From a virus: a stretch of DNA of 64,000 nt. Positions 25,020-56,937 of the stretch are shown one piece after another. The notes below the pieces were generated by a model. It made no database searches, had not been told where the DNA came from, and saw only the letters and a program-made list of their open reading frames with translations. The stretch lies in the IMG/VR virus record IMGVR_UViG_3300025121_000282, positions 248,001-312,000 of that record; one strand, given 5' to 3'. Positions within the stretch are counted from its first letter, which is position 1, and every line of letters begins with the position of its first letter. Position numbers and translations under genes: made by a program.

Positions 25020-25150
25020 GCTTTGAAACCCAAGTTTTGTCATTATGTAACTGTCCATCTACTCCGTTACTTACACAATGGCGTGTTGTATGTCAATTGA
25101 CTAATTGAGCCTATGTGTGAAAAGTAGCCTGACTACATAAGAGAGTAAAA

Positions 25151-25681
25151 ATGAGAACACTTACAATAGAGCAGATAAGAGATATTGCCATACGCGCCCA
25201 CGGGACCCAAAAATACGGAGAAGACCCGTACTCAGTTCATCTGGACGCGGTAGTCTCTATGCTTGGCGAATTCGGCTTTGATTCATTTGAAGATAAAGCC
25301 GTTGGACTGCTACACGACACCGTAGAGGACACTGATCTCACCTCAGAAAAACTAATTAGGATCGGAGTCCCTATTGTTGTGGTGGATGGTGTTCTTTTTT
25401 GTACTGATGAGCCCGGGGTTAACCGCAAAACCAGAAAGCGCCTCACATATGCCAGAATTAAAAGTGTTATAGCTGCCTGCAGTGCATACGATTCAGTGTC
25501 TACAACAATAGGGGTTAGAGTTAAGTTGGCTGACAGGCTTGTAAATATTAAAAAATGTATGAAAGACAATCCGAAGCTTTTAGAAATGTACGTGTCTGAG
25601 CATCACGATTTTTGTAACACATACTACATGCCGGGTACAAACTACGCGATGTGGGAGCACTGCTCGAAGGTGTTTGACTAA
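25151..25681 (+). CDS. MESH1/SpoT-like HD phosphohydrolase
   Basis: 176 residues. HD-domain motifs in RelA/SpoT order: His17-Gly-Thr, His30, His55-Asp56 with Glu59-Asp60 (LLHDTVEDTDLT), and 'VKLADRLVN' near 123. These match the (p)ppGpp hydrolase domain of SpoT and the stand-alone MESH1 enzymes. No synthetase, TGS or ACT domain follows, so it is hydrolase-only. Likely role: removal of (p)ppGpp or a related 3'-phosphorylated nucleotide from the infected cell. A different nucleotide substrate cannot be excluded. It is last in the plus-strand island; its stop overlaps the stop of the convergent gene. Confidence 0.85.
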   Translation: MRTLTIEQIRDIAIRAHGTQKYGEDPYSVHLDAVVSMLGEFGFDSFEDKAVGLLHDTVEDTDLTSEKLIRIGVPIVVVDGVLFCTDEPGVNRKTRKRLTYARIKSVIAACSAYDSVSTTIGVRVKLADRLVNIKKCMKDNPKLLEMYVSEHHDFCNTYYMPGTNYAMWEHCSKVFD

Positions 25682-26091
25682 TCTTTTTGGGCTATACTAG
25701 GGAGTGAAGTAGGCGGGGCCACACTTTCTCCAAATCTTTGATTTTGTACGTGTGTTACAGCTTGGCTATAGTGTATTGGCACGTACTTTCCATCGGAAGT
25801 TCTGGCTACATTTGTAGCTTTTTCCTTTGAAATTACGTTCATCATGTCTGAGCGTCTGTGCTCCACACTAATCCATCTTTTTTCGGCGTCAGCCCCGACT
25901 ACCTTGTCTACATCCTGAAAATCGCTAGCTACAAACCCCGGTGCATTGAACTGAGCTTCAGGGGCAGATAGTGTCCTTCTGGCCTCCTTCTTACATTCAG
26001 TGCATTTCGTAGGGTCGTCTTTTTTGGAATTAGGCCGTAAAACTTCAAATTTTAAGTTACAATGTGCACACTTATACTCGTACAACGGCAT
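25678..26091 (-). CDS. FmdB-type zinc-ribbon protein, long form
   Basis: 137 residues beginning MPLYEYKCAHCNLKFEVL with Cys8-x2-Cys11 and CTEC at 30-33, the FmdB zinc ribbon. The remaining ~90 residues (WISVEHRRSDMMNVISKEKA) form a longer tail. Here it belongs to the minus-strand neck/tail operon, 8 bases after the stop of the preceding gene with an AAGGTGG site. Phages often carry such a protein near tail-completion genes, but a virion role is inference. Confidence 0.8.
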   Translation of the reverse strand: MPLYEYKCAHCNLKFEVLRPNSKKDDPTKCTECKKEARRTLSAPEAQFNAPGFVASDFQDVDKVVGADAEKRWISVEHRRSDMMNVISKEKATNVARTSDGKYVPIHYSQAVTHVQNQRFGESVAPPTSLPSIAQKD

Positions 26092-26099
26092 GGGCCACC

Positions 26100-27305
26100 T
26101 TAAATCATTGGCTGATGTGAATTTCGATTACTACTCGGTATGGATGGGTCATTGGTGAAGAACAACCCCAAAGACTTCATCAATTTCAATGTTGATTTTA
26201 CAGTTATTGAGTCCAGGTTAGACATCTGTGCCAGTTCCTCAGCGATGGTGTCGTCATAGTCTCTAACTACCCGTACCAACTGAGGCAGCGGAAATGACAT
26301 GTGATAGTCAGACAGCATGGTGAGACTTATAGAACCTATGATGTAAGTGTCCTCTCCACTCTCGTCGTAGGCTTCTTCAGCTTCTCCACTGAAATCCATC
26401 TCTGTTATTTCTATGCCCTCGTAACTCAATTGGTTTCTCGATGGGCCCCACAACAAAACCCCTAGATAGTCTATCAACTCTTCAAACTGGATACTGTCTC
26501 TGGTAATAATATCAATACTCATGTTCATGTTCCATTGACCGCCATAATTCAAACTGGTAGCGACTCTGCCTTCTGTTATCACTATGGCGTGCTGATCCCC
26601 GTTTTGTACCCTGTTCCCGAAGGCTATAAACACTCCAGGCAGTGCAGTAGTATTTGACGTGTTTTCTTGCCATGAGAATGGCCCCATCGCATTACCCAAG
26701 TGCACATACTCAGCCCAAATATAATCTCCCGGGGAGAAATCTCTAAGAATGGAAATCTCTCCAGTGTCATAGTCCACAGAGTACTCTGACTCTATTAGTT
26801 GGATGTTGTCATTTTGTATTATTCTTAGCGACCCCTGTAACGGTACGTGAGCCAGAGTTATGGCATTTTCGTTGCCCGTAACAAATTTTATAAGTGGTTC
26901 TCTGTTCTCGTAGTACCAGGGGGTAATTGTAAAAGTGCCCTGTTTTTCTATATGTGACCCGCTGATGTCTAAAATGTACACACCCGGGTTTGTGGGGAAA
27001 TGACCACCATTGCGGTCTATGGCGTAAAGGTCGTCCTTAATCCATTCCACGGAAGTTCCGGGCTTGTCTGGCATCTTAGAGAGCATGGAGTAGGAAAGTA
27101 CAGTACCCAAGAAATTATCTGAAGACAGTTTCAATGGGCTTGCAGAGTTGTTGGACACCACTACAGCCATTTGAGGTCGGTCTTCAAAAGCCCACTTGCC
27201 CTGAACGAACGGCACCATTTTAACAAACTTGGGGTGGTCTAGTAGGTGCCGTTTTATCTCTCTTATCAGGCGCTCTTTTACTGATGATAGCAGCTTATAA
27301 TACAT
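26100..27305 (-). CDS. Neck/tail-completion structural protein
   Basis: 401 residues, good AAGG ribosome site before the ATG. N-terminal helix (VKERLIREIKRHLLDH), then a beta-rich body with 'DYDTGEISILRDFSPGDYIWAEYVH', a pattern seen in phage neck and tail-terminator proteins. It lies in the operon between the tail-completion-type gene and the sheath. Specific role not determined. Confidence 0.65.
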   Translation of the reverse strand: MYYKLLSSVKERLIREIKRHLLDHPKFVKMVPFVQGKWAFEDRPQMAVVVSNNSASPLKLSSDNFLGTVLSYSMLSKMPDKPGTSVEWIKDDLYAIDRNGGHFPTNPGVYILDISGSHIEKQGTFTITPWYYENREPLIKFVTGNENAITLAHVPLQGSLRIIQNDNIQLIESEYSVDYDTGEISILRDFSPGDYIWAEYVHLGNAMGPFSWQENTSNTTALPGVFIAFGNRVQNGDQHAIVITEGRVATSLNYGGQWNMNMSIDIITRDSIQFEELIDYLGVLLWGPSRNQLSYEGIEITEMDFSGEAEEAYDESGEDTYIIGSISLTMLSDYHMSFPLPQLVRVVRDYDDTIAEELAQMSNLDSITVKSTLKLMKSLGLFFTNDPSIPSSNRNSHQPMI

Positions 27306-27314
27306 GGGGCATCC

Positions 27315-28004
27315 TTACTTAGGGTCTAAAATCCGGTCTACAACTGCCTTTTTTGACATACCGCGTTTTGTTGCTATGCCTCTTGCAGCAGCTATTTTCA
27401 TTAGTGTGTCCAACTTCATTCCCTCGTTGGGGACCACAGTTAGCAAGTCATAAGCAACCCCATCCGGTTCCTCAGAGAGGTCTACCGTGGAAGGGTTTTC
27501 CTCCAGGGTCTCCAGGGTCTCCAGGGTCGTTTCGACTGGTGTTTCCACAGCCTCCATAGTAACAGGTGCTACTACTATTGTCTCCACTATTTCAGGGACA
27601 GTGGGAACCTCGGATGCTACTGCTGCCACTACCTCGGGGACAATAGGGACCTCGGGGACAACAGGACTGATTGCTTCCAATTTCTCAGGAAGTGCAACTG
27701 GGGTTTCACACGCCTGAGCACGGACAGGAGCGCTGTATACTCTAGAGTTCTTCACTTCCAGAATCCATGCACCACCACTTTGCTTTAGTTTCTTTTCCAT
27801 GTCATTTAACTCCGACAGCAGTCTATGCAATTGTTTAACCAAAAAGTTGCTAGTACTTTTGGAAGGTACCAACGACTTTACACGAGTCAGGTGCAAAATC
27901 TCAATAGGTATACTTTCTAAATTAAAGTATAACTTCCTACCGGCCTTAAATTGTATATCATTGTATTTAAGTGGCCGAGTAGACCGTAGGCACACAGCTA
28001 GCAT
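27315..28004 (-). CDS. Protein with Pro/Glu/Val repeat linker and C-terminal SAP/HeH-like domain
   Basis: 229 residues. Residues 1-75 are mixed (KYNDIQFKAGRKLYF). Residues ~105-195 are low-complexity PEVP/VPEI/ETLE repeats, some coded by tandem 9-bp DNA repeats near 27500-27530. The last 40 residues (MKLDTLMKIAAARGIATKR to end) look like a SAP/HeH-type helix-extended-loop-helix domain, which usually binds DNA. Sits among neck genes; might anchor DNA at the head-tail joint, but this is only inferred. Confidence 0.65.
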   Translation of the reverse strand: MLAVCLRSTRPLKYNDIQFKAGRKLYFNLESIPIEILHLTRVKSLVPSKSTSNFLVKQLHRLLSELNDMEKKLKQSGGAWILEVKNSRVYSAPVRAQACETPVALPEKLEAISPVVPEVPIVPEVVAAVASEVPTVPEIVETIVVAPVTMEAVETPVETTLETLETLEENPSTVDLSEEPDGVAYDLLTVVPNEGMKLDTLMKIAAARGIATKRGMSKKAVVDRILDPK

Positions 28005-28017
28005 AATATTTTCAGAG

Positions 28018-28674
28018 TCATAAAAGGTCCATAATGGATTTCTTAATTGTTTTAGTTATAGTCACTCTTGCTTTCTCTTGTAAGTGTTTTTTGAATTCAT
28101 GGACACCAGCCTTAATACTGCGTTGAATGAAATTATTTTTGTTTTCTATTTTTTGTGGTGTCCACTGCTTTTTTTCATTCTTAGGTATGGAGTATACTAC
28201 AGTATTTCCGTCTATTTTAACAGGCAGACTAGATTTATCAATACCTTGCTTGCTCGTGGTGCTGTTGGTTGCATTGAGTTTCTGTGCATTGAGTGCGGCC
28301 AACAGTGCAACCGGTGTCTTGCCAAATGTAGCATTGGGGCTTATACCTTTAATAATACTTTGTATTGACCTAGCTGTTCTAATGGTTACATTTGAATTTG
28401 GCAATTGGAATGTAACATCCCCCCTGTGCACTGCGTACTTAATCCCCTGTATGTTCAACTTGACACGGTTAGCTTGGTCCCCTGCTTCACGAGCGGCTTC
28501 GTGTGTGCACACTATAGAGACTTTATCACCCAACATCTGGACTTTAAAAGACCTAGTAAAATTACCAGTAGGGGCCTTTAAGTTTTGGGGCCTAATTGAC
28601 TTTCTTACACCGGATATGAAACCCTGGGCAGACTTAAGTAAATCTGATTGTGATAGTTTAATTAATTCGTTCAA
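28018..28674 (-). CDS. Tail-completion / neck protein (HK97 gp10-like candidate)
   Basis: 218 residues with a TTG start overlapping the stop of the upstream gene (TTGA). Basic, with an N-terminal helix, a central beta region (KVSIVCTHEAAREAGDQAN) and a long basic C-terminal helix (ENKNNFIQRSIKAGVHEF). The size and position between the neck protein and sheath fit a gp10-type tail completion protein. Weak on motif evidence. Confidence 0.6.
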   Translation of the reverse strand: MNELIKLSQSDLLKSAQGFISGVRKSIRPQNLKAPTGNFTRSFKVQMLGDKVSIVCTHEAAREAGDQANRVKLNIQGIKYAVHRGDVTFQLPNSNVTIRTARSIQSIIKGISPNATFGKTPVALLAALNAQKLNATNSTTSKQGIDKSSLPVKIDGNTVVYSIPKNEKKQWTPQKIENKNNFIQRSIKAGVHEFKKHLQEKARVTITKTIKKSIMDLL

Positions 28675-36586: not shown

Positions 36587-36601
36587 ACATAGTCCTTTCG
36601 G

Positions 36602-36674
36602 TGCTCGCCCAGGGACTCGAACCCTGACCTGATCGATTTAGAGTCGACCCGCCTTGACATTTGGCCACACGAGC
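36602..36674 (-). tRNA. tRNA with anticodon CUA (amber-reading)
   Basis: 73-base cloverleaf on the minus strand: acceptor stem of six pairs with a mismatch at 7-66, three-pair D stem (GCC/GGC), anticodon stem GTCGA/TCGAT with loop CTCTAAA, and a T arm CAGGG/CCCTG with loop TTCGAGT. Conserved T33 and A37 place the anticodon at CTA, which reads UAG. The D loop lacks the usual GG pair and CCA is not encoded. Several genes here still end in TAG, so it would compete with release factor rather than mark full recoding. Identity of the charged amino acid is unknown. Confidence 0.75.
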
Positions 36675-36677: not shown

Positions 36678-38213
36678 TTACTGTCTAAATAACACAAACT
36701 TTTTCTTTTCTTTACCAAACACTTTTACGTACCCTTTTGATTCAGCAAACTCCTTCTCTGTCATATGGCATCCAACGGCATGGTTGTATAAAGTCTTTTT
36801 GTGCATCATCCAACCAGTCGTGTCTACGTACACATAATCAGGCTTGGTAGTGGAAACATGTTCCCAATTTGAAGCTTGGTAGACGATGCCCTCATGGCCC
36901 ACGGTAGTATCGGCAAACGAAACTATTGCCTTGGTTTCTGGAAATTGGTCCCAGAAGTGTTTGGCCGATCTTGCTAAAAACCAAGACCCGAAATTAGGCT
37001 TGTGGCAGTCTGTTCTGATACAAAGTCTATCCAACTCCGACACTGTTTTTGGAGTAAGTCCTACTGAGGTGGACACCTCTTTTCTAACAACAGGAGCGAA
37101 CTTTGCCACTGCTATTAATTGGCCATCCAAGTAAGCCCCAAACATAAACTTTGCTTTACGACCACACTGGGCATAGTGCCAAGCTCTTAAAAATCTGTTA
37201 CCCTCAGAGTGCTCTATAGGCTTGACAATTAATTGGTTAAACTCGAATTCAGTTATTTTGGACTCGCTGACACCAATTACAGACTGAATTTTATCTTGAA
37301 CCAAATCAGGTATTAAAGTCTCATGCTCTTCTATACACAAAAGTAGTGAATCAGGGTTTGCAATTCTAAGATATGCTGATTTAGCAACGTCCCGCCTTTG
37401 GTTATTCGGAAGGTTGTGCCAATAATCACCTTGTACTTCAATGTATATATTAAAATCCGATAAATACAGGTCAAAATTATACGGACCCACAGATTTTTCT
37501 CTGGTGTATTTTATCTCAAGCAGGTCTAATACATCAGAAACCACTTTTTCAGGTTTAGACTGTCTGCCTGACCTAGAAAAGGCCTCTATACCAGCAGCTA
37601 TTTTAGCCCTGTACTCTGGATTTTTAAATCTTTCTTTTGCCAATTCACTGTGTATCTTTTTGTATTCTGGGTTCTGGATTGCCAAGTCATGGTTAGCTCT
37701 CGCCTCAGGCGTGTGCATTACTGACACTTTTTCCCTGAAGTATTTGTCTGGGTCGGCTTTATAATCCGCCTTGTTTCGTTCCGACACCAGCTGTTTATGC
37801 TGGTCTGACTGAAACATCTTGGTAATGCGGTCTTGCTGAAACTCCCTAAAATCTGGGTCTTCCCAAGCCTGTTTAGCTTGCTTAGACCTTTGGGCTCTGC
37901 CATCTTCAGAATTGGCTATGGCACCCAATATTTTTGACTGGTTGCTGACGTACTCTGGATTCGCCCAGGCTTGCTTGGATTGCTTAGACCTCTGAGCTTT
38001 TCCTTGAGGACTCTTAGCTCTGCACGGGGAACACCAGTATTCCCCGCGTTTTCTCAGAGTTCTATTTACAATAGACCTCTGATTGCATACAGACCTACCA
38101 CAACACTGATAGACTACCCACCCTCTTTGTTTAGGGGTGGGTAATCTATACCCAAAGTCTATTTCGTTGTGCTCTTGGTCGGAAATTTGTGCGTACAGTG
38201 TTGCTATATCCAT
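36678..38213 (-). CDS. EDxHD-type homing endonuclease fused to Mom-like domain
   Basis: 511 residues. N-terminal Cys cluster (37-64), then NUMOD-like DNA-binding repeats (about 70-210; 'KQAWANPEY', 'KQAWEDPDF', 'RFKNPEY'). Residues 215-305 form a Vsr/EDxHD-type nuclease: 'VGPYNFDLYLSDFNIYIEV' followed by QGDYWHN. Residues 325-470 resemble the phage Mu Mom protein (GNAT-like fold): HY346-347, 'SELDRLCIR', and 'SFADTTVGHEGIVYQASNW' (432-450). The nuclease part is of the homing type used by free-standing phage endonucleases. It follows the purZ-like gene by 42 bases. The fused Mom domain could be functional or vestigial. Confidence 0.75.
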   Translation of the reverse strand: MDIATLYAQISDQEHNEIDFGYRLPTPKQRGWVVYQCCGRSVCNQRSIVNRTLRKRGEYWCSPCRAKSPQGKAQRSKQSKQAWANPEYVSNQSKILGAIANSEDGRAQRSKQAKQAWEDPDFREFQQDRITKMFQSDQHKQLVSERNKADYKADPDKYFREKVSVMHTPEARANHDLAIQNPEYKKIHSELAKERFKNPEYRAKIAAGIEAFSRSGRQSKPEKVVSDVLDLLEIKYTREKSVGPYNFDLYLSDFNIYIEVQGDYWHNLPNNQRRDVAKSAYLRIANPDSLLLCIEEHETLIPDLVQDKIQSVIGVSESKITEFEFNQLIVKPIEHSEGNRFLRAWHYAQCGRKAKFMFGAYLDGQLIAVAKFAPVVRKEVSTSVGLTPKTVSELDRLCIRTDCHKPNFGSWFLARSAKHFWDQFPETKAIVSFADTTVGHEGIVYQASNWEHVSTTKPDYVYVDTTGWMMHKKTLYNHAVGCHMTEKEFAESKGYVKVFGKEKKKFVLFRQ

Positions 38214-38255: not shown

Positions 38256-40679
38256 CTAACCCAAGTACACGTAGTCATCATGGAGAGCGCTGGTACCAAC
38301 CATCACCACGGGAAGTCCTGAGCAATTTTCCAGCATATCAATAAACGCTCTGGTTTCAGAGCTAAACTTGACTAATGCCTCTTTGCCCCCGCGCAGACCG
38401 ACGTCGATGTGGTTGATTTGATTCACAAAATTCAGTACAAGCTTGGTTGCACCGCAGGTTCTAGCAGCGTCCTTAAGCCCAATTTGGGAGAATGTCCCTA
38501 CGCGTCGAATGCGCTTAGTAACCGTGGTTCGCTCGCGTTCCGCCAACATTTTTGCCTCTTCCTCTGGCATGTTGGCTCTCTTTGCTATCTCATCCCAGGT
38601 CAATTCCTGTTGGTCGGGGTACCACCCTCCAGAATTCCCCAGTTCTTTGCCAGACTCGTCATACACGTTTCCAACCCTAATTGGGTGCGACCTTAAGTTT
38701 AAGTAGACGTCGCCCACCATGTTTGGGGGAATGGCCATATAGTCCATGGCTGCCTGAACTGTGCAGTTTCTAGAAGTGCAGTTTGGATAGTGTGAGCCGT
38801 GGTCAATACTCAGTGCATAGCCCTGGCTTCCTTCATGGAGCCAGTAGTCACCCTTACTGATGATTTTGTGGGTGGCATCACGAAATGCCATGCCGTTGGT
38901 GATTTGAATGTTTCCAGGGAGGTCTATTGGTGCTGGTGTGTTACCAACCAGGGGCACATTCTGCTTCCGTAAAACCTTATCAGCCAGGGCGGTCCCGGAA
39001 CCCTGCATAGTGGAGGCTAGGTGCTTGGTGCTTTCTGCTCCCTCACGCTCTCGTGCAGCGTGGTCCTCGGTTACAATACCTGCACGATCATGAACATAAA
39101 GGTCTGGTCCACCACACTCCTCATACTCCTTGATGAACTGTTCCCAACGAAAAGATGAACCGGGAGAAATCCATCCAGCAACCTCACGGCCAAGTGCTTT
39201 CTTCAGACCGCATGCGGTGGGCAGAGCCTTGGCTACAAACTTCCCATCTTTCAAATTCGGGTGAGCAATAGTGTTGTGTGAAATAGCACCATTGGCTAGA
39301 TAACTGTGGGTTTGGGGCATGGTTACATCAAAAACCCGTTCTTCCCCAATTGCCAAATTGACTTCTTTGATGTCTACTACATGATAGTCCTCGGCCAATT
39401 TAACTAAGCCGGTAAATCCAGCCGCTCGGAGTGTGGCGGCATTGCGTAAAACATACGCACCTGCGATGGCTCCATTCTCAGTTGAATTCGTGCTGTGTGC
39501 AGCTTTGCGTATTTGAATCAAACGGTTATAATTGAGATTGATGAGAGAGCCTTGAGACCAATCAGCATCGTATGTGGCTATTTCCACATTTAATCTAGCC
39601 GACTTGACCTCTGAAAGAAAACCTACTCGCTCACGAAAAAGGGTTAAATTTTCCAAACCCGCCATCTCAATTTGATGTGATCGACTGCGAGAAGGTCGCT
39701 TGTCCTGGTAGGACCGGTAAGTGGAATTAATACCCAACAACAATAATAACTGTTGGGCCATCAGCACCACATCTTTTGAAATGTTGCCAAAAGAAACCCT
39801 TCGCTTTTTGGCCGACCCATCCGAGTCAAACAGACCCCGCAGAAATGCTCCAATTATTTCAGGGGTGCCCACAGTGACAGCAGTCGGTATCTCTTTTTCG
39901 GCTTTAGTAGCTAGCTTCAACCCCACTTGTTCAAAGATCTGGCGAAGTTCGGAAATACTGCAGGTTTCCAGAACGTGGCACTGTTTGTCTTTTACCTTGT
40001 AAACATTCCATGGGATGCCGATGCCATCGTAAAATTTTTGAGTCTTGCAGCAAACATCCATCTGGTCAGAGTGGAACGCTATGCTAACATTTGCCTTTTT
40101 GGGACTGTAACACCCATCACCAACCAACAGCCCCAGGTATTCAGCCATTAATAATTCGTCTGGTTTATTTGTCAGTGCGGTTCCATTCGCTCTGTGTATC
40201 AGGGATAACATGTCTATAGGTAGACTGGTTCCCACCCAGTTAGTCTTTTTAGGAAATAAAAACTGGTGTACTCCAGGTACTAAATCCATTGACCGTATCC
40301 ACTGTGGGGCGTTTTCAGTGGGGTCCCAAACATAGTACTGATGTATGTCAGTACATTTGTACTCAATGCCATTCTTGAGTTTGATTTTGTTGACTACTCT
40401 AACCCCGTCATCAACCAAATCTGTAGGCGACTCCCAACAGCCGTCCATGTTGAGAAGCTGCAGACCCTTTTGGTTCTGAGTGACAATATCCCCAAGCTTT
40501 TTTAATCCCCGGTCAGTGGGGATTATGGCGTCAAAAGTTTGACAGTGGCCTGCATTGGGATAGTTGGCAGAAGACACATTTCGGACATTGAAAATATCCA
40601 CCAAACGAGACGACAAAGCTCCCTTACCTGAGCTACCCCAGGCTTGGTCGAGGACAACATTGAACTTTCCAGGCTGCAT
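38256..40679 (-). CDS. purZ: PurZ-like adenylosuccinate synthetase paralogue, intein-interrupted
   Basis: 807-residue precursor: N-extein 1-45, intein 46-469, C-extein 470-807, giving a spliced enzyme of 383 residues. The P-loop is WGSSGKG (14-20): Ser16 replaces the catalytic Asp13 of E. coli PurA, as in PurZ enzymes that use dGMP. His45 matches PurA His41. The IMP-loop equivalent is GSGTALADK (560-568) without the usual Arg. The aspartate loop is TTVTKRIRRVGTF (718-730). The GTP-specific TKLD motif is replaced by LNFVNQ (749-754), as in PurZ. Such enzymes join dGMP and aspartate to make N6-succino-2-amino-dAMP, which the host PurB turns into dZMP. Strong AGGAGAG ribosome site; stop is TAG. 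Confidence 0.85.
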   Translation of the reverse strand: MQPGKFNVVLDQAWGSSGKGALSSRLVDIFNVRNVSSANYPNAGHCQTFDAIIPTDRGLKKLGDIVTQNQKGLQLLNMDGCWESPTDLVDDGVRVVNKIKLKNGIEYKCTDIHQYYVWDPTENAPQWIRSMDLVPGVHQFLFPKKTNWVGTSLPIDMLSLIHRANGTALTNKPDELLMAEYLGLLVGDGCYSPKKANVSIAFHSDQMDVCCKTQKFYDGIGIPWNVYKVKDKQCHVLETCSISELRQIFEQVGLKLATKAEKEIPTAVTVGTPEIIGAFLRGLFDSDGSAKKRRVSFGNISKDVVLMAQQLLLLLGINSTYRSYQDKRPSRSRSHQIEMAGLENLTLFRERVGFLSEVKSARLNVEIATYDADWSQGSLINLNYNRLIQIRKAAHSTNSTENGAIAGAYVLRNAATLRAAGFTGLVKLAEDYHVVDIKEVNLAIGEERVFDVTMPQTHSYLANGAISHNTIAHPNLKDGKFVAKALPTACGLKKALGREVAGWISPGSSFRWEQFIKEYEECGGPDLYVHDRAGIVTEDHAAREREGAESTKHLASTMQGSGTALADKVLRKQNVPLVGNTPAPIDLPGNIQITNGMAFRDATHKIISKGDYWLHEGSQGYALSIDHGSHYPNCTSRNCTVQAAMDYMAIPPNMVGDVYLNLRSHPIRVGNVYDESGKELGNSGGWYPDQQELTWDEIAKRANMPEEEAKMLAERERTTVTKRIRRVGTFSQIGLKDAARTCGATKLVLNFVNQINHIDVGLRGGKEALVKFSSETRAFIDMLENCSGLPVVMVGTSALHDDYVYLG
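39273..40544 (-). mobile_element. Intein with LAGLIDADG homing endonuclease in purZ-like gene
   Basis: 424 residues (46-469 of the precursor). Begins with Cys46 (CQTFDAIIPTDRG, block A), has TxxH at 110-113 (block B), two LAGLIDADG-type helices LLVGDG (184-189) and FLRGLFDSDG (279-288), and ends with block F/G 'THSYLANGAISHN' followed by Thr470. All splice-site residues (Cys1, His-Asn, Thr+1) are intact, so protein splicing and homing should be active. Insertion splits NAGH from T, the catalytic His loop of the PurA fold. Confidence 0.93.
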
Positions 40680-40681: not shown

Positions 40682-42370
40682 CTAAACTCTCCTAACCCAC
40701 TTGGTTTTTGGCACCTCTGATACTGTACAGAGACCGGTATACTCTACAAACTGTCGTTCTGTCATATGGTTTGACAGTGCTTGATCATACACAGTACGTT
40801 TGTGTATGTATCTCACTGTGACTGGGTCAAAATAATGATACGATTCCCCGGTCTGGCCCGCTTCAATAAAACTACAGGCTTTGTACAAGCCACCAGAATC
40901 ACCAACATTGGGGTCAGAAAATGAAACCAGTAACTTTAGCTTTGGGCTTTCTGATTTATAGGCACCAATTAACTTAGACATACAGTAAGAAGATAGATTA
41001 TTCACATCCAGTCCAGACCTTACGCAAAACCGTCTAATCTCTCTGACACTACCTGGATTCAACTTACCCAGCCCCAGTTGCTCTGCGGTTTTTTTGACAG
41101 TTCCGTGTCGGGTTACACCACCAAATACCAGCAAACACACCAATGTGTCCTTAAAATAAGCCCCATAGGGAGAGGCTGCTGTCCCCAAAGTGCCCAAGTA
41201 ATGATTGGTGGTTAGAAACACGTGGGCTTCTTTTAACGGAACAGGTCTAAACTCCAAGTCCGACAACTGAAATTGTATTGGTTCTTCAATGGCTCGCAAA
41301 ATGTGATAGTCCAACACTTTACGAAGTCTTCCCAGATGCAGTTCATGCTCCCATAACCACACTAACTTATACTTTGAATACTTTTCTATGTATGTAGCTT
41401 TGGCCTTATCTCTGGGTGTTCCAGAGTACCCGTTGTCTTTAAAATTGTGAAGATAATCACCATGGGTCTCTATCAACAAATTGCATAATGGTACATAAAA
41501 ATCAAACGAGTATGGGCCCACCGTGAAACTGCGTTCGAATGGAACCTTATAGTGGGACTCCAAAATGGAGGCTACTATCCTTTCTGTAGTAGGGTTCTGT
41601 AATTTCTCTTTGACACCCGGGATGTCAAAACCAGATTCTGACCCGTATAATTTCAGTAAGGTAGTTCTGCGTTTAATGGCTTTACATTTGGCAGACCCAC
41701 AGGTTAACGGGTGGGCCTGGGTGTAATACGACATCTTGGTTTCAGAGGTATTGTCACACACATAACACTTATAAATTATGGTCTTTTCACACAGTGGGAA
41801 TATTTTCGTGGCCTTGTACCCAAATTTAACAAACGTGGCATCGTCATCAGCCCATGCATAGTCTGGGGGCTTTCGTTTCGACAACCAAAAGTCATGCTTA
41901 CTTTGTGTGGATTCTTCGCGAATCCAAGTAGCAGCCACAGGACTGCACAGTTTGCAGCACACTACTTTGTTGCTTCTGGATAGACTTTGCAAACTGGTAG
42001 TGTACTGCTCTAGGCAAAATTCACATACAGCTTCAACAGCTTTTTCTGACCTTGGAGACAGTGTGTCTAGGCCATACCCATGTTTGGCTATGGTCAACAA
42101 AGAGTCTGCCCCAGCGGGCCGTTTAAGTACACTTAATAAATAGTACTCTCTAGGTGTTGTTTGTTTCTGCCTTACCCAATGAGATTTTAACTGATCGCAG
42201 CCCGAACAGGCATCTGGCGGAACGCGTCCAGGTTTGGAAAACTGATATTTCTTCCTCTCAAACACTTCTAAACAGAAATCGCATTGCACCACTACAGGTT
42301 TCTTAGACTGTGGCGCTAAGTCACTGTACCGATATCCGTATTTCTCAACAGTCAAGTCATCTTGGTGCAT
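40682..42370 (-). CDS. Zn-ribbon/EDxHD nuclease fused to Mom-like domain, upstream of purZ
   Basis: 562 residues from the ATG at 42370. Three Cys-rich zinc-binding repeats fill residues 28-230 (CDFC..., CEFC..., CYVC...). Residues 270-345 are a Vsr/EDxHD-type nuclease ('VGPYSFDFYVPLCNLLIET' then HGDYLHN). Residues 380-530 are Mom-like (HYLG, 'VREIRRFCV', 'SFSDPNVGDSGGLYKAC'). Same nuclease-Mom order as the gene at 36678, but with a different N-terminus; the two are diverged paralogues flanking purZ. Ends TAG three bases before the purZ start, inside which lies purZ's ribosome site. Confidence 0.72.
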   Translation of the reverse strand: MHQDDLTVEKYGYRYSDLAPQSKKPVVVQCDFCLEVFERKKYQFSKPGRVPPDACSGCDQLKSHWVRQKQTTPREYYLLSVLKRPAGADSLLTIAKHGYGLDTLSPRSEKAVEAVCEFCLEQYTTSLQSLSRSNKVVCCKLCSPVAATWIREESTQSKHDFWLSKRKPPDYAWADDDATFVKFGYKATKIFPLCEKTIIYKCYVCDNTSETKMSYYTQAHPLTCGSAKCKAIKRRTTLLKLYGSESGFDIPGVKEKLQNPTTERIVASILESHYKVPFERSFTVGPYSFDFYVPLCNLLIETHGDYLHNFKDNGYSGTPRDKAKATYIEKYSKYKLVWLWEHELHLGRLRKVLDYHILRAIEEPIQFQLSDLEFRPVPLKEAHVFLTTNHYLGTLGTAASPYGAYFKDTLVCLLVFGGVTRHGTVKKTAEQLGLGKLNPGSVREIRRFCVRSGLDVNNLSSYCMSKLIGAYKSESPKLKLLVSFSDPNVGDSGGLYKACSFIEAGQTGESYHYFDPVTVRYIHKRTVYDQALSNHMTERQFVEYTGLCTVSEVPKTKWVRRV

Positions 42371-42478
42371 ACCTGCATTATACACAAAAGTGTGGCACTA
42401 ACGGCAAGGGTGCTATACATTAAAAATTACTTCGTACTTGGTTGTACAATACCATCAGACCCACAACAGGAAGACACA

Positions 42479-45041: not shown

Positions 45042-45580
45042 AGAACCAGTATGTATTTTCTTTTGATGTAGAGAGTGTTGGGCTGTGGGGTCCATCTTTT
45101 GCTGTAGGCTGGGTGCTATTCTCACCTTTGGGTGCTGCCTTGTCATCTGGTATACTAGCCTATGACCCAAAGTTGTGTCCACCTACTTATTCTTTTGCAG
45201 ACGAGGAATGGGTTGCCACCAATATACCTCCACTTCCATATAAGTGTAATTCTTTATTTGAAGTGACATCTAAGTTCGAACAAACCTTACGAGAAGTGCA
45301 GTCGTTTGTATTAAATCAGAACCCATACGGATACATCTTGTATTTGGCTGATTGTCCACACCCGGTGGAGACAAACTTTTTACGAGAATGCCATCAACAC
45401 TTTCCAGTTACAAATACAATAATGCACCCTCTTGTTGACTTGGGGTCAATCAGACTAGCTAAGGGGTTAAATCCTACAAGTGTAGAGCCTAGACTGCCAC
45501 TTGAACTGCCCATCCACGACCCAAGGTGTGACGCTTTGCAGTCTGGGAGGCTATATTTTGAGGCTATGCGTCGGGGATAA
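45038..45580 (+). CDS. DEDDh 3'-5' exonuclease (DnaQ-like)
   Basis: 180 residues. Exo motifs in order: D10-x-E12 (FSFDVES), Asp105 (LYLADCPHP), and His160-x4-Asp165 (HDPRCDAL). This is the DEDDh set of the DnaQ/epsilon superfamily, which removes nucleotides 3'-5' using two metal ions. Small and with no polymerase domain; DNA proofreading or RNA trimming are both possible. Confidence 0.82.
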   Translation: MKNQYVFSFDVESVGLWGPSFAVGWVLFSPLGAALSSGILAYDPKLCPPTYSFADEEWVATNIPPLPYKCNSLFEVTSKFEQTLREVQSFVLNQNPYGYILYLADCPHPVETNFLRECHQHFPVTNTIMHPLVDLGSIRLAKGLNPTSVEPRLPLELPIHDPRCDALQSGRLYFEAMRRG

Positions 45581-45584
45581 ACCA

Positions 45585-46043
45585 CTACTTGGGGAGCTTA
45601 CTTAACAAGTCTCCCACTTTTATACCACTATCGTCTTTAATTTTTACTACATAAACTTGTGGTTTTATGCTAATCACTTGAGACACATGCTTGTCTTCTA
45701 TACCGACTGGCAACGCAATGTCTACTTTGTTTCCATTGTCTGTAATAGTGATCTTTTCTTTGTCTCTTAGGGGATTTTTAGATAATTCTATTGGGTGCGT
45801 TTTGATTTCAACCCAATACTTGGCGTCAGGAGCACCCACAGGCACGGGTCTAACTGGTTCGGATTCTAAAATTATGTCTAGTGGGTCTGTGTAGTCTCGT
45901 ATTTTTAAAAGTTTCTTTATTATACCGCCAAAATTTAAAACGTCAGATTGACCTAATACCACACAAAACAGCGCCACAAGTACGAATAATACGAGTGGCG
46001 CTGCCATTACCAACCAGCGAGGTAGTCTTTTTAGTACTTCCAA
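45585..46043 (-). CDS. Single-span membrane protein
   Basis: 152 residues. N-terminal MEVLKRLPRW then a hydrophobic helix (about 13-32), followed by a soluble beta domain. Lies downstream of the holin in the small lysis-type cluster, so a lysis accessory role is likely but unproven. Convergent with the exonuclease operon. Confidence 0.6.
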   Translation of the reverse strand: MEVLKRLPRWLVMAAPLVLFVLVALFCVVLGQSDVLNFGGIIKKLLKIRDYTDPLDIILESEPVRPVPVGAPDAKYWVEIKTHPIELSKNPLRDKEKITITDNGNKVDIALPVGIEDKHVSQVISIKPQVYVVKIKDDSGIKVGDLLSKLPK

Positions 46044-46044
46044 T

Positions 46045-46323
46045 TCACTTGATGCTGTTTAATACAGATGCAAGTTTATTTAGCGAAACATCAATGCTTG
46101 TGGGAACAGAGGCGATCTTGTACTTTTCAAGTAAAACCTTTTGTGCTGCCTCAAGTGTGTTCTCTGCATTTTCAACAGCACGATGCACGTTGCCCAAAAA
46201 GGAATCCCCTGCATTTCCCTTTTTAGCTTCCTCTAGTCCTAGCTTCAACGATTTTAGCTGAACTAGAATTTCAGAAACCTTGGCTTTGGCAGAATTGGGG
46301 GTGAGTGCTGTTTTGGTGCTCAT
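46045..46323 (-). CDS. Small helical protein in lysis cluster
   Basis: 92 residues, helical with Lys/Glu/Leu heptads; no membrane segment. Start overlaps the holin stop (ATGA). Function unknown. Confidence 0.6.
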   Translation of the reverse strand: MSTKTALTPNSAKAKVSEILVQLKSLKLGLEEAKKGNAGDSFLGNVHRAVENAENTLEAAQKVLLEKYKIASVPTSIDVSLNKLASVLNSIK

Positions 46324-46688
46324 TTGGCGCGAGCCTTATTTAACTGGGCTTCTATGACGGCTTCAAGGCTGTGTACGTGGCTGTCCACCCACTCATCCAT
46401 GCCGGCCTTCTTGGCCTCTTTCTTGACGTATTCGATGGCCTTCTGAAGCTTCTCTTCACTTGACGTAGGACTATCTACCTTCAACTTCTTGTGTGCGTAT
46501 TCTTCCGCACTGGAAATACCAGACTTTATTAGACCTAGAAGTCTAGACTCCATCTCAGAGTCTATCTGGATCTGGAACTTGGCCTCAATTACTTTAACCA
46601 GCTGGCGTCCCAAAACTGTTAAAACTCCTGCCACAATCATCACCACTACAGGAAGCAGGTTGTCCAGCATTATCTTTAGGTATTCCAT
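46320..46688 (-). CDS. Holin, LLH-type
   Basis: 122 residues, AAAGGAG ribosome site. One N-terminal transmembrane helix (about 9-30: LLPVVVMIVAGVLTVLG) followed by charged helices with 'SAEEYAHKKLK' and 'KLQKAIEYVKKEAKKAG', the pattern of LL-H-type phage holins. Such holins form pores that start lysis. No endolysin is visible beside it. Confidence 0.75.
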   Translation of the reverse strand: MEYLKIMLDNLLPVVVMIVAGVLTVLGRQLVKVIEAKFQIQIDSEMESRLLGLIKSGISSAEEYAHKKLKVDSPTSSEEKLQKAIEYVKKEAKKAGMDEWVDSHVHSLEAVIEAQLNKARAK

Positions 46689-46723
46689 TATTAACTCCTT
46701 TAACCAAATTTGGTATAAAAGTA

Positions 46724-49700
46724 TTAGGCCAACTGATTGTTTCGGTTTGGTAGAGCTACCAATGGATGCCCTTTGATACGGTACCTGTCCACAGCCGAAA
46801 ATCCTTCCCCAACACCGTTGTGCCCGATTCTGGAGTGTAAGTTCTTTAGTACAGAACTAGATACAGTATTATATTCTACGCTAGTAGACACCACAAGTTG
46901 GAGTTCACCACCCCGATGTATAACCACTCCGTCATGTTGTTCTTCTACTGTTCGCACCAAGCATGCAATACCTACTAGAACCGGGGATAACGAGTATGTT
47001 TCTTTCGGTGTTTCCAGCGTCGCTGCATCCACAGTTATGGGGCCATAATTACCATTTCTTCTGATCAAAGAACCAGTGTCACCTCTATAAGTACGAAATT
47101 GGGTACCCATGGTATCCGTATTTACACCCTTAGACAAGACCATGGTGGCCCCAAAACCCGGAACCATGACGGTCTGCGGGTCGCTAAAGTCAATACTGTC
47201 CCTGTCGGTTTGGGCTTGAGATGACACTATCCTGCTCAGCACATTTATTGCAAAATTAGACAACTTTCCATCAAATTTATAGTCTTGTCCCACAAAGTTC
47301 TTGTCTAAAAATAAACGACCCATGGGCAGTCTGGTTGTAGCCCCAGCGTACCTTGGGTGAATAAACGACCCATAATCACCTCCAGCCACCCCCACAAAAT
47401 TTATCGGCAAATCTTCACTCTGGATGTCATACTCATATGCAGAATCCAGAATCGACCATTTTTCTACTACGGTATTGCCGTTGAATCCAGCTATTCTTCC
47501 CGTGCCCAAGGTTGTAGCAAAACAAATAGAATCCATTACCTCAAACGACACAGGCTCAACCAAGTCTGTGTATGTGTCTGTTGTAGAGATAGCAGTACGA
47601 CCTGCTACCGAGATAGCACCTCTGCGGTCCACTTTGTCATACGTGCCAGTTATAGGGTCTCCTTGGTATGGCCTACGTGTGTAAGTGACAGCAATGTCTG
47701 CTTCTTTATTCCCAGCAGAGCCTCTAACCGGTCCAGGGGTGACTAGGTACACATCCCCGTTTTCCAAAAGTCTATCAGCCCACACATCACTATCCACAAC
47801 CCCACCCGGGGCGCCTTGTCTAACTACAAGCTTTTGACTTGTGGCATAACCCTCTGTGGACCCCACCAAGAATCCTCTGCTAAAACCGAAACAAGTAGCT
47901 TCCACTACATACTTACCAGAATCAAACGAAGCAATGGCATTTGGCGATCTAGTAATGTCTACCATCGATTCATCTAAAACGAAAGTCCCATCTTCCTCGG
48001 CATCAAGCCAGTACCAGAGCGGGACACCCTCACAGTCGTCCCTTAACAAGTTCACGGCTTTTCCTACGGTGCTACTAAGGGGCTCTCTTGTAGTCTCGTC
48101 TGTAGATGTTCCGTTGTCTCTAAAGTCTCCAACCTCGTATACCGCCCACAACCTAGCAATACCGTGGAATGTCGAGAACTGAATACCAGACCTACCCCAC
48201 GGAGTTTGGGAAGCAGTTACAACTCTGCACCCAATTCTCTTATTCTCTACGTCTACACCAACTTGTCTATTAAATCCCGTGGCTACAGGGACATCGTCGA
48301 CAGTATGAGTCATAAAAGTGACCCAAGTACTGCCTGAGGTGGCATAATCAAGGATGCCTGAGTTTACAGTTTGGCTGCTTCTAGCTTGCACAAAACAATT
48401 GATACCACCTGAATAAACAAAATTACCATCATTAGTGGGGTAGCGTGTGCCGTACTGTACCGGATACACCGGAACGTCAATTCCCACATACGGTTTGCTT
48501 GTGTGTATTATAGTCGGGAAAATACCGGGCGGAATCTCTATACTTCGAGTATTGTCCCAGATGCCAAGGGGGTCGTGTGCATCCTTGTTAGGAAAAGACC
48601 CCGTACTCGGGTCTTCAGTTATAGGCATTGTGGCATATGTTATTACCTGTAATGGGTATAACTTTATTTGCTGCCAGGGCGTAAGCATGAAGGTCTTTGA
48701 CCCGGGGTCCACATAACAAGCTGTCAGAGTGGGTTGGTCATTTTCATAATAATTGGTGTGTACACTATGGTGCATCTGTATAGGCTGAGTTTTAGTTATA
48801 ATGTTATTTCGGGGCAACAATAAATCTTTGTGCCCTTCCAATATTGATACACTTAGTATCTTTTCGGGTCTTCTACTTAAACCATGTCCCCCTGTAGTTA
48901 GGGTCGTGTACCTCAAGTAGCATCTGTAACTAGAATCAAATACGGCGTCCCCTGTGGGAGCAGGTGCACCACTGATATACACACACATGTCCTCATCATA
49001 GGCGAATGGGGAACTGCTCGATGGGCTTATTGGCGTATCTATTATGGCAGTGCTGGCATCAATGTTATAAGCTAATAGCGTGGCATCCGCTGAGGACCCA
49101 GTACCATAGTATGTGTTTTGTGTGTGCTCAGTTGTAAGCCCGTCTGTCCAAATGGACACTAGCTCTTCATTTACGCCCCTCCCCGGATATTGTCTACTAT
49201 CCGAAAGAGGAACTAGAGTGATGGGAGTTGGGCCTCCTGGAAACACAAACCTGTTTTGAGCACCCCCAACATTGTGTGGATATATACGAACTCTTATAAC
49301 GTCACCGTTGGAAAACTTATTTGCCACTGTTTGTTTTATGATATTTATGGCATGGGCATCTAACGTGTAATTTGAGTCTACTGCGCTAACATCGTCCCCT
49401 ACATTTACTATGGCAGTATGCGGCTTTAGGGCCACCACATGGTGTCGCCAGGGAGTTGCAGCATCGGACCAAACAGTACGCAAGCCATTGGCACTTTCCC
49501 CTATAGAATACGCACCCGGCATGTCTTGATCGTCATCAGAAAACCGGTCGGTAGACACTAACAGAGGGCCAACACAAGAAGAATCTTGTTGATCCATCTT
49601 CCAAGTGGAATCCAAATTTCCACCCATAAGATCCATAAAAGTACTTATCAATAAGTTGCGGTCGGTATTCGTGTTTACAGTATGTCTTAAGTCTAGTATG

Positions 49701-50938
49701 TCATCTTGGGTTATTTCGTCCGCAAATAAACCATCGGGTCTTACGCTGGTCCCTCTACCCGCCAACAGAGTTATTATTGCCCCCGTAGAGTGGGACCTTT
49801 TAACAGTATTTAACTCACCTCTAGTCACACCTACTAAGTACCCGTTGGAAATACTACTAAATGACAGGACTTCGTCATCGATTTTTATCAAACTGCTCCC
49901 AGAAGTAGGGATACCGGCTGAAGTAGTAGCAGTTAATTTTATATTGGTTACAGTGGTGCTGCTTATGTCACTAAATAGCGTAGCCACGTCAGTTATTGTT
50001 GTAGCACCCGAGGCAGAGTTTATGGTGGGTATTCTATTTATACTGTGATTTTTAGCGTCATCTAGTACAGAGTACCCACCATTTACTTTCCTAAAAACTG
50101 CACATATAGGTATTGCTTTCACCCAACCGTCAGCAGTCCCAAGCCCATTGGTTGGGTCTGCTCCCACTTCTACATCGAGCACATTGTTTACGGGGGCATC
50201 CCCGCTCCAACCAGCCAGCCAAAGCCCGTGGTCAGACGGAGACATGTAATACCTAGAGTTTTCTAGAGGGGAAGACAAATTTGCTTGTGCTAGTACTAAA
50301 CTATTCAAAAAACCATCTGGGTTATTTAAAAGGGCTAGTTTGTTTACGGACACCACTCTGATTCTGTATTGTAGCTGGACTCTTTTAGTAGTTTGTGCGC
50401 CGTACGTACTGTCTTTGGTATAATCCGTTAAATTCGTCCCACCAAACAACACGTTACCATACTTCCACATAGTGGAGGAGGATGGTTTGTTTGACGTAGA
50501 CGGTGTAGGGGACACCAGTGCCCTCCACACTTCCAAAAACACAAGGTCTATTCTGGTATCGTCCGAAGGTGGGGGCGGAAGTTTAATCCAGTTTAAAAAA
50601 TTCCCACTAACCGGGTTATCAGTACCAGCGATGGGTATGACATACCCATCTATTATAGCGGTTAGTGGTCTGTCCTCAAACCCAAAAGTAAACTGATTTA
50701 CATACGACTTATTTGTGTTGTAAACTCCAGGAGACGTAGAGTCGCAGGCCCATCCTGAGGCAGGAAATGTGGCCTTGACCAATGCCCGGTTATGATCCAG
50801 AGCACTTTGAGCAACTAAATTGAGTTCTGAATCCAGTGGTGCTTTGTACTTTTGAAATACAACATCTGTTATTTGATAGTTGTCTGACGGAACAACTCTT
50901 GAAACAACACCACCCAGGCTATTTATTGTGTCGGCCAT
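46724..50938 (-). CDS. Large tail/baseplate fibre protein, paralogue 1
   Basis: 1404 residues, beta-rich. The N-terminal third contains 'DLVFLEVWRALV', 'RVQLQYRIRVVSV' and 'KAIPICAVFRK', matched at similar spacing in the gene at 51698. The remainder is unique and full of Thr/Asp/Gly loops, as in virion fibre and receptor-binding proteins. First gene after the lysis cluster in the leftward order and last of the fibre operon. Role inferred. Confidence 0.7.
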   Translation of the reverse strand: MADTINSLGGVVSRVVPSDNYQITDVVFQKYKAPLDSELNLVAQSALDHNRALVKATFPASGWACDSTSPGVYNTNKSYVNQFTFGFEDRPLTAIIDGYVIPIAGTDNPVSGNFLNWIKLPPPPSDDTRIDLVFLEVWRALVSPTPSTSNKPSSSTMWKYGNVLFGGTNLTDYTKDSTYGAQTTKRVQLQYRIRVVSVNKLALLNNPDGFLNSLVLAQANLSSPLENSRYYMSPSDHGLWLAGWSGDAPVNNVLDVEVGADPTNGLGTADGWVKAIPICAVFRKVNGGYSVLDDAKNHSINRIPTINSASGATTITDVATLFSDISSTTVTNIKLTATTSAGIPTSGSSLIKIDDEVLSFSSISNGYLVGVTRGELNTVKRSHSTGAIITLLAGRGTSVRPDGLFADEITQDDILDLRHTVNTNTDRNLLISTFMDLMGGNLDSTWKMDQQDSSCVGPLLVSTDRFSDDDQDMPGAYSIGESANGLRTVWSDAATPWRHHVVALKPHTAIVNVGDDVSAVDSNYTLDAHAINIIKQTVANKFSNGDVIRVRIYPHNVGGAQNRFVFPGGPTPITLVPLSDSRQYPGRGVNEELVSIWTDGLTTEHTQNTYYGTGSSADATLLAYNIDASTAIIDTPISPSSSSPFAYDEDMCVYISGAPAPTGDAVFDSSYRCYLRYTTLTTGGHGLSRRPEKILSVSILEGHKDLLLPRNNIITKTQPIQMHHSVHTNYYENDQPTLTACYVDPGSKTFMLTPWQQIKLYPLQVITYATMPITEDPSTGSFPNKDAHDPLGIWDNTRSIEIPPGIFPTIIHTSKPYVGIDVPVYPVQYGTRYPTNDGNFVYSGGINCFVQARSSQTVNSGILDYATSGSTWVTFMTHTVDDVPVATGFNRQVGVDVENKRIGCRVVTASQTPWGRSGIQFSTFHGIARLWAVYEVGDFRDNGTSTDETTREPLSSTVGKAVNLLRDDCEGVPLWYWLDAEEDGTFVLDESMVDITRSPNAIASFDSGKYVVEATCFGFSRGFLVGSTEGYATSQKLVVRQGAPGGVVDSDVWADRLLENGDVYLVTPGPVRGSAGNKEADIAVTYTRRPYQGDPITGTYDKVDRRGAISVAGRTAISTTDTYTDLVEPVSFEVMDSICFATTLGTGRIAGFNGNTVVEKWSILDSAYEYDIQSEDLPINFVGVAGGDYGSFIHPRYAGATTRLPMGRLFLDKNFVGQDYKFDGKLSNFAINVLSRIVSSQAQTDRDSIDFSDPQTVMVPGFGATMVLSKGVNTDTMGTQFRTYRGDTGSLIRRNGNYGPITVDAATLETPKETYSLSPVLVGIACLVRTVEEQHDGVVIHRGGELQLVVSTSVEYNTVSSSVLKNLHSRIGHNGVGEGFSAVDRYRIKGHPLVALPNRNNQLA

Positions 50939-50959
50939 GTGTTACACCGCAGTCAAGTG

Positions 50960-51688
50960 TTACTGAGCAACTAAACAAAACCAATTAAGGTCTATGTCCC
51001 TAGATGTGTTGTTTTCTATCTTTATCACTAAACTAACGCCATCATTTTCCACTGGTATTGTCACCGGTACCCCAGAGCCACTTAAGGTGCTGTAACCAGC
51101 ACCACCATTCACCGAAACCCTTATTGTGCACCAATAGTCTGATGTCTGCGCAGTAAATTGGTGCCAAAACTTAACGGGACCAATATTTGATGTAGTATAT
51201 TCAGATATACTAGACCCACTTACAGAGTCCTTATTACTCTCACTTCTCACCCACCTACCCATGCAAAATAGTGGGGTTACCGTTCTTATGTCACCGCACT
51301 CAGACCACATAAACCCTCTAGCAGTAGTAACTAAAACACCACCTTGTCTTACGGTTATCGTACCACACTTTCCTATGTTTATCTTGGACGAGTTGCCCGT
51401 GTCCACGTCGCTAGAACTTAAAAACGGGTACATATACGTAGAAGCAGATCCTACGCTCCACCCGTAACGGGGGAGTGCCCAAGACCAAGTTGCTTTTCTG
51501 ATCTGGTCTATCAGCCCATCACTTACCACGGTATTTGGCTGAGTAAAGCCTAGTGTTAGGTCAGACTCATTAATCTCAATTTCGTCATGAACGGGTACTA
51601 CAAACGCACCATTCAATATAACTCCAGAAATGTCATCGGTGGCATACATCACACGCTGGGTAAATTGGTCTATTACGTAGTATCGCAT
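50960..51688 (-). CDS. Small fibre-associated protein
   Basis: 242 residues, beta-rich, between the two fibre paralogues; 'VSDGLIDQIRKATWSWALPRYG' near 65 and a beta-sandwich-like C-terminus (DGVSLVIKIENNTSRDIDLN). Could be a fibre tip or adaptor. No family recognised. Confidence 0.6.
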   Translation of the reverse strand: MRYYVIDQFTQRVMYATDDISGVILNGAFVVPVHDEIEINESDLTLGFTQPNTVVSDGLIDQIRKATWSWALPRYGWSVGSASTYMYPFLSSSDVDTGNSSKINIGKCGTITVRQGGVLVTTARGFMWSECGDIRTVTPLFCMGRWVRSESNKDSVSGSSISEYTTSNIGPVKFWHQFTAQTSDYWCTIRVSVNGGAGYSTLSGSGVPVTIPVENDGVSLVIKIENNTSRDIDLNWFCLVAQ

Positions 51689-51697
51689 TTTGTTATC

Positions 51698-55659: not shown

Positions 55660-56421
55660 TTAGAGTGACTTAATCTCTGAGATGATGCGTTGTGCTCGCA
55701 TCAGTACTTTCTTAAGCTGCTCTGTCTGTTCCGTGGACTCCAGTCCTTCCGGAAGTTCTTTTCTAGCAGACATAAATAGCAAGACAGCATCCTGAAGAGT
55801 GTCTGCTGCAATCTCCATTTTATCTTCCGGAGTTAGACTGTTGTACCCACTCCTGAGTGTTCTAATTTCGTTCATTATGTCTACCATTAATGAACGGGCA
55901 GGAGTCGAAAAGCCAGACTCCTGTAGGTCAACTGCGGCTACTTTGCGGAGACTAGCTGCCAAGGTTCTAAACTTCATGTGCTCATCCCTTATCCCTGTGT
56001 ACTTCTTTTGAGTTTCCAAATCAACGAATCCAACAGAATCTACCATTATCACCTTACCATTTTTAAGTTTGATAAGGTCACCCACAGTCATGCTACTGTG
56101 GTTTGTGTGCTTCAACTTTAGCATTTGATCAGCTTGGCCATCGGGACACCAAACTGAACGTTGCATCATTTCCAGTATGTGCTCAGGTGTTATTTCGTCC
56201 ACATATCCAATTTTGGCATGCGTCGTCAACAAAGTTTCATCCGGATTGGACAAATTGAGCAGCAGACTTGGGGATTGGTTTTTTAAATGTCTGAATCCCT
56301 GTAAAAACGAAGCAGAATGCTCTTTTTTTACAAACCATACAGACGACTGCCCGTGGCCGTATCTATGGTCCCCCGTAGCCTTTATTGCATCGCGAAGTGT
56401 TATGTAGTTTTTAACGGACAT
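55660..56421 (-). CDS. Hypothetical protein, start abutted by a hairpin
   Basis: 253 residues. A segment 'MTVGDLIKLKNGKVIMVDSV' (about 110-130) resembles small barrel domains of the YodL kind. C-terminal half helical (KLKKVLMRAQRIISEI). No Shine-Dalgarno; an 8-bp palindromic hairpin ends exactly at the start codon. Confidence 0.6.
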   Translation of the reverse strand: MSVKNYITLRDAIKATGDHRYGHGQSSVWFVKKEHSASFLQGFRHLKNQSPSLLLNLSNPDETLLTTHAKIGYVDEITPEHILEMMQRSVWCPDGQADQMLKLKHTNHSSMTVGDLIKLKNGKVIMVDSVGFVDLETQKKYTGIRDEHMKFRTLAASLRKVAAVDLQESGFSTPARSLMVDIMNEIRTLRSGYNSLTPEDKMEIAADTLQDAVLLFMSARKELPEGLESTEQTEQLKKVLMRAQRIISEIKSL

Positions 56422-56441: not shown

Positions 56442-56453
56442 TAAAAATGTTAT

Positions 56454-56903: not shown

Positions 56904-56937
56904 GTAGCTTTTCTATTACTAAGGGACTGTTGTTAAT

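Follow-up and report, generated by a model that had tools for sequence, protein, structure and literature searches.

A jumbo phage represented by a 314,886-bp virus contig (IMGVR_UViG_3300025121_000282, called G000 in comparisons) encodes a PurA-family enzyme that is almost certainly PurZ, interrupted by an in-frame intein. Sequence, phylogeny and a structure model together support this identity and show PurB, IMPDH, GuaA and PolA to be encoded in the same record. The gene probably specifies an active PurZ with a self-splicing intein that feeds a largely phage-encoded route of 2-aminoadenine (Z) into DNA, where adenine would be replaced fully or in part.

The window analyzed is a 64,000-nucleotide stretch of this record, which was recognized as a jumbo tailed phage by its terminase, portal, major head protein, NAD-dependent ligase, RecA, DnaB and PolA; the sole hint of a contractile tail is one baseplate-wedge Pfam match. 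The purZ-like gene is a single open frame of 807 amino acids, its ends and frame exactly as first predicted (Table 1). TAG, with which it closes, is an ordinary stop in G000. A tRNA with a CUA anticodon (tRNA-Pyl type; ARAGORN, window positions 36600-36674) is a possible amber suppressor, but TAG recoding through it was rejected: among 358 large ORFs, 65 stop at TAG, and few long ones would benefit from read-through.

Table 1. Features of the purZ-like gene, its surroundings and the purine pathway in the window, in G000 and in the sister contig G003
Sequence	Feature	Coordinates	Strand	Remarks
Window	purZ-like gene with in-frame intein	38256..40679	-	807 codons plus TAG stop at 38256
Window	N-extein	40545..40679	-	residues 1-45, P-loop WGSSGKG to NAGH
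Window	Ser16 codon	40632..40634	-	AGC, replacing PurA catalytic Asp
Window	intein	39273..40544	-	424 aa, LAGLIDADG homing endonuclease domain, between His45 and next Thr of NAGH-T
Window	C-extein	38259..39272	-	338 aa, TTVT aspartate loop and N-F-x-N ATP site
Window	511-aa protein	36678..38213	-	immediately downstream of purZ; C-terminal domain of the Mom family, PD-(D/E)XK-like motif (EVQGDYWHN)
Window	567-aa protein	40682..42385	-	directly upstream of purZ; Mom-domain type; homologous to 511-aa protein (119 bits)
G000	intein-like insertion, RecD2-like helicase (L003)	2993-6454		
G000	intein-like insertion, large terminase (L004)	24999-28199		
G000	intein-like insertion, DnaB (L005)	45576-48407		
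G000	GuaA (GMP synthase)	180222-181745	-	adjoins IMPDH
G000	IMPDH (IMP dehydrogenase)	181753-182859	-	adjoins GuaA
G000	PurB (adenylosuccinate lyase)	229168-230436	+	411 bits vs NCBIfam cut-off 326
G000	HD-type ORF, DatZ candidate	230458-231159	+	directly after PurB; GroEL follows
G003	DatZ-like	136.8-137.45 kb		first of four in a row
G003	MazG	137463-137963		follows DatZ-like
G003	IMPDH	137960-139027		follows MazG
G003	GuaA	139028-140551		follows IMPDH

The sequence signature that had suggested PurZ is largely as first described. Ser16 of the WGSSGKG loop occupies the position of E. coli Asp13, in a column shared with the characterized PurZ enzymes, and the GTP-type TKxD motif is indeed lost: LNFVNQI stands in its place, aligned to the columns of characterized PurZ, and gives the exteins an ATP-type N-F-x-N nucleotide site. 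The aspartate loop TTVTKRIRRVGTF is present too, but it had been called altered, and its TTVTKxxRRVxxF pattern is the normal loop of PurZ. The equivalents of N305-F306-x-N308 and V241 are kept; Val241 of S-2L PurZ has been described as a barrier to the ribose 2'-OH (PMC8342488), which its equivalent here would likewise disfavor. Compared with the ligand list of S-2L PurZ (PMC8342488), the residues of the dGMP pocket are kept except for G130, replaced by Ala throughout the clade, and Y203, replaced by Asn. The window protein retains 33 of the 34 columns that are invariant across 32 PurZ relatives, and four residues that are invariant in the jumbo-phage clade are changed in it. Ser alone is no proof of PurZ, as several chromosomal archaeal and bacterial homologues have it; it is the whole pattern that reads as PurZ.

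Among PDB chains, the exteins match PurZ of phiVC8 (5e-31) and S-2L (1e-25) ahead of the best PurA (1e-16) and PurZ0 (3e-14), and the two PurZ matches, together with the 33 invariant columns, exclude a chance likeness. For L002, a relative with 60% identity, the NCBIfam PurZ model NF038379 was the best model but scored 195 bits against a cut-off of 300; the cut-off is also missed by MaF61 and BpsS-140, which indicates that the model is narrow. Alongside this scoring of L002, the match to PHROG 1211 (PurZ) reached 198 bits.

Phylogenetic analysis of PurA, PurZ and PurZ0 (75 rows, of which the PurZ set makes up 57) places the window protein inside PurZ (100/98), apart from the other two groups, as the original prediction anticipated. 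It falls in a 16-row PurZ clade (100/99) found mostly on jumbo-phage contigs; its sister is L023 (88/96), from the 307,777-bp contig G003, and its end branch is 0.45 versus 0.11 for that sister. A structure model of the sister protein (pLDDT 95.5) has as its top PDB match 6fm1, phiVC8 PurZ with ATP and dGMP (6.8e-27), with Pyrococcus (archaeal) PurA 5k7x close behind (8.9e-26). Plain PurA is excluded by the Ser for the catalytic Asp, the lost TKxD and the tree placement, and PurZ0 by the tree placement.

The enzyme resembles PurZ of phiVC8 and S-2L (succino-amino-deoxyadenylate synthetase; PDB 6FM1 and 7ODX) in its Ser for Asp, TTVT loop, N-F-x-(N/Q) ATP site, mostly identical dGMP pocket, fold and position in the PurZ clade. 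At about 33% identity, however, it belongs to a separate clade, and it differs from both in its C-terminal extension, its intein and the two pocket substitutions at S-2L G130 and Y203. PurZ0 of actinophages (Ghobes, Aledel, Galactica and TurboVicky) has the same Ser for Asp, but the window protein branches outside PurZ0 and has neither the SEAKG loop nor the T-M-x-D site of that group. Ser-type PurA-family genes that branch at the base of PurZ also occur on chromosomal contigs of Halobacteria, Lokiarchaeota, Nitrosomonas, Thalassolituus, Lachnospiraceae and others (L103-L105, L109, L111-L113, L116, L120), and Ser-type homologues of 442-444 aa from Clostridia MAGs (L100, L106, L107, L108, L119) lie on a long branch (1.51) within the PurZ radiation; the latter could be unrecognized phage contigs.

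The length originally given for the spliced enzyme, 383 residues, is correct: the exteins are residues 1-45 and 470-807 (45 + 338 aa), and the intein occupies residues 46-469. It contains LAGLIDADG_3 (E 5e-18) and Intein_splicing (E 8e-7) domains, sits in the conserved NAGH-T loop and has Cys1, the TxxH of block B, a C-terminal His-Asn and a +1 Thr. With these splice residues intact, the window protein is predicted to splice. The relatives L002 and L021-L030 are intein-free and read straight through the insertion point (393 aa in L002 and L021). G000 is intein-rich, with further intein-like insertions in three other proteins (Table 1).

The two homologous Mom-domain proteins that flank purZ both carry PD-(D/E)XK-like motifs, and from its sequence the 511-aa downstream protein is a probable mobile endonuclease. 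A close homologue of it (532 bits) lies at the 3' end of purZ in G009 on the opposite strand, which suggests that such proteins may be mobile endonucleases aimed at purZ. HNH-type genes stand right after purZ in L002 and in Bacillus phage vB_BpsS-140.

A Z-type gene set, as looked for, accompanies purZ: PurB, IMPDH and GuaA are present in G000, and DatZ and MazG, weak candidates there, occur in its closest relatives. Given PurZ, PurB, IMPDH and GuaA, the purine-specific steps from IMP to dZMP would be phage-encoded in G000 except for GMP to dGMP. PurB is phage-encoded in Gordonia and Streptomyces Z phages too. The proposed search of the whole record for datZ and dpoZ was only partly rewarded, yielding a weak DatZ candidate and a PolA that is not of the DpoZ type. 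This candidate, the HD-type ORF, is the top match of a nine-sequence DatZ profile, but at E 0.0037; it keeps 8 of 12 invariant DatZ residues, has an hhalign probability of only 3.8 and is the sole frame of 3948 with an HD-E-D-K-D pattern, which was written after the ORF had been seen. It has no close relatives in IMG/VR and no match in a PDB sequence search, and its single-sequence AlphaFold model has a pLDDT of 35. Two MazG-like ORFs with ExxE..ExxD (65788-66129 and 122778-123323) are weak (E 0.0038 and 0.26); G000 has no PF03819 match, and no confident DatZ or MazG was found in it. Neither was a dUTPase (DutZ type) found in G000, nor a phage reductase seen among the Pfam matches listed, and a PF18909 search gave no match anywhere, controls included.

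G000 also encodes an IU_nuc_hydro nucleoside hydrolase (genome positions 218797-219684, L014:9797-10681; E 1.6e-17), which may serve to remove deoxyadenosine. The 114-180 kb region contains a gene for a Dam-family adenine methylase (PF05869, E 5.8e-20); it is unexpected with full replacement of A, though compatible with Z, in which N6 is still present. PARP, NADAR, SIR2, ADP-ribosylglycohydrolase and PARG-like proteins occur together (genome positions 56357-57910 and 57-115 kb) and look like a set for NAD- or ADP-ribose-based defense or counter-defense.

Clear DatZ and MazG appear only in the relatives, as judged from their sequences. An IMG/VR profile scan found the PurZ clade of the window protein on contigs of up to 427 kb, and a DatZ search added two more, of 436 and 377 kb. 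The phage is therefore not the isolated case implied by the original description of a large myovirus as an unusual host of this pathway, but one member of a jumbo-phage PurZ clade. In G003, the four-gene row of Table 1 is tightly packed (MazG and IMPDH overlap by 4 bases, and GuaA starts at the next base after IMPDH); PurB is present away from it, and directly upstream of purZ is a kinase-like ORF whose P-loop sequence appears to resemble those of phage deoxynucleotide kinases. DatZ-MazG pairs are also found in G004, G007, G009, G014 and G017, and dATP triphosphohydrolase is the best PHROG for the DatZ of G003 and G007, the two scanned. The MazG-like protein beside DatZ in G007 (L126:2073-2786) has a C-terminal Multi_ubiq (ubiquitin-like) domain that exceeds the Pfam cut-off.

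Ser-PurZ of the same clade is present on all six large contigs with a G003-type DatZ, and where a DatZ contig has no such PurZ, it is a fragment (5-184 kb); such co-occurrence counts are not a probability, a capsid-based base-rate control among related jumbo phages having given only two short contigs. A Ser-type PurA-family ORF is likewise found, besides G000, on G003, G021 and G022, contigs of >150 kb with full-length GuaA, although that of G021 is on a long branch and not certainly PurZ; G016, the fourth such GuaA contig, looks like a fragment of G003. GuaA matches in cultured-phage records are prophages or apparent host contigs.

The Z-cluster of S-2L is datZ-mazZ-purZ (PMC8342488). The sister jumbo phages likewise bring together dATP removal, dGMP supply and PurZ, but in them datZ-mazG and purZ are separated, G003 has IMPDH and GuaA after MazG, and PurB is phage-encoded. 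Outside the jumbo phages, Flavobacterium phage MaF61 (PQ858689, L018), a cultured myovirus of Flavobacterium sp. B330 with a contractile tail and 168 kb, is annotated with adenosuccinate synthetase and lyase (PurB) and also encodes a ribonucleotide reductase. Its synthetase is a Ser-type PurZ inside the PurZ radiation, but it is 34% identical to L002 and belongs to a different sub-clade. Our literature search found no report of Z in MaF61 DNA.

The family-A PolA of G000 (49575-52352) groups with the enzymes of G003, G004, G007 and G009 in a clade of their own (100/99; G008 was not part of this comparison), distinct from DpoZ-1 and DpoZ-2, and retains the Tyr of motif B where both DpoZ types have Phe. 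DpoZ was rejected for G000 on these grounds, and the earlier observation that the window has no Z-specific polymerase extends to the whole record. S-2L replaces A by means of an unselective polymerase and pool control through dATP removal (PMC8065100, PMC8342488); because it makes a Z genome without a Z-selective polymerase once dATP is removed (PMC8065100), a non-DpoZ PolA is compatible with a Z genome.

From these genes we infer the following route, including the activity of its enzymes, the flux through it and the presence of Z in virion DNA. Phage IMPDH and GuaA would convert IMP through XMP to GMP, drawing IMP away from AMP and raising the guanine supply for PurZ; host enzymes would carry out the reduction to dGDP and dGTP, and a MazG-type pyrophosphatase would return dGTP to dGMP. 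PurZ would then form dSMP (N6-succino-2-amino-dAMP) from dGMP, aspartate and ATP, phage PurB would release dZMP, and kinases would raise it to dZTP. The phage DNA polymerase I would place Z opposite T, in place of all or part of the adenine, with dATP lowered by an HD-type (DatZ-like) hydrolase and by the diversion of IMP.

Since the phage of the window has no certain dATP-removing enzyme or Z-selective polymerase, its PurZ could be genuine but Z minor or partial, or the pathway could serve mainly dGMP/dGTP turnover and the starvation of the host for dATP. We regard this as unlikely: the weak DatZ and MazG candidates, the motif B Tyr and the Dam methylase gene would all fit it, but S-2L shows that an unselective polymerase and pool control suffice for replacing A, DatZ and MazG are both present as a pair in the sister genomes, and in G000 itself PurB is followed by an HD candidate.

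Two further readings concern the enzyme. An ordinary phage adenylosuccinate synthetase (IMP to AMP), accompanied by PurB, IMPDH and GuaA in a general auxiliary role in purine metabolism, would agree with the general nature of those genes and with the nearly equal structural closeness of archaeal PurA, but it is very improbable given the Asp-to-Ser change, the PurZ-like loss of TKxD and the tree, and an enzyme of this kind would face competition for IMP from IMPDH and GuaA. Scarcely credible is the view that the gene is inactive or in decay and persists solely to harbor the intein and the endonuclease-like genes beside it: the frame is fully open, the family-wide invariants (33 of 34) and catalytic set are kept, and splice residues and pathway partners are intact, against which stand the long end branch, the four altered clade residues, and an intein within and Mom/PD-(D/E)XK genes on either side. 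An active PurZ within a Z route is the reading that we prefer. Z in the virion DNA of the jumbo-phage group seems fairly likely, and we give complete replacement of A in the phage of the window perhaps an even chance.

Published Z phages are described as small sipho- and podoviruses (PMC8599892), and those known fall in at least seven groups (PMC12884076); the latter study makes no mention of PurB, IMPDH, GMP synthetase or jumbo phages. Searches of the open-license literature, which are weak evidence, found no earlier report of PurZ in jumbo phages (there was one unrelated match) or of IMPDH or GuaA in a Z pathway. Our results suggest Z chemistry in very large phages, where it was previously unreported, and what would be new is the class of phage and the larger set of supply genes, the chemistry itself being known. 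More tentatively, and with the odds somewhat against it, the jumbo phages may be a third independent Z-genome lineage, with its own route from IMP to dZMP (IMPDH, GuaA, MazG, PurZ and PurB) save for GMP to dGMP, a third, Z-adapted family-A polymerase and all-Z genomes of 250-430 kb.

Use of Z by the jumbo-phage group would make the largest known Z genomes several times bigger and of myovirus type. MaF61, as a cultured phage, is open to a direct look for Z, and the jumbo group is a source of new PurZ, DatZ, MazG and PolA sets for ZTGC DNA, its PolA bearing on whether Z selectivity in a polymerase is confined to DpoZ-1 and DpoZ-2. Should the proposed route be true, the phage itself would reroute the purine flow of its host at the IMP branch point, a step undescribed for Z synthesis in the literature examined.
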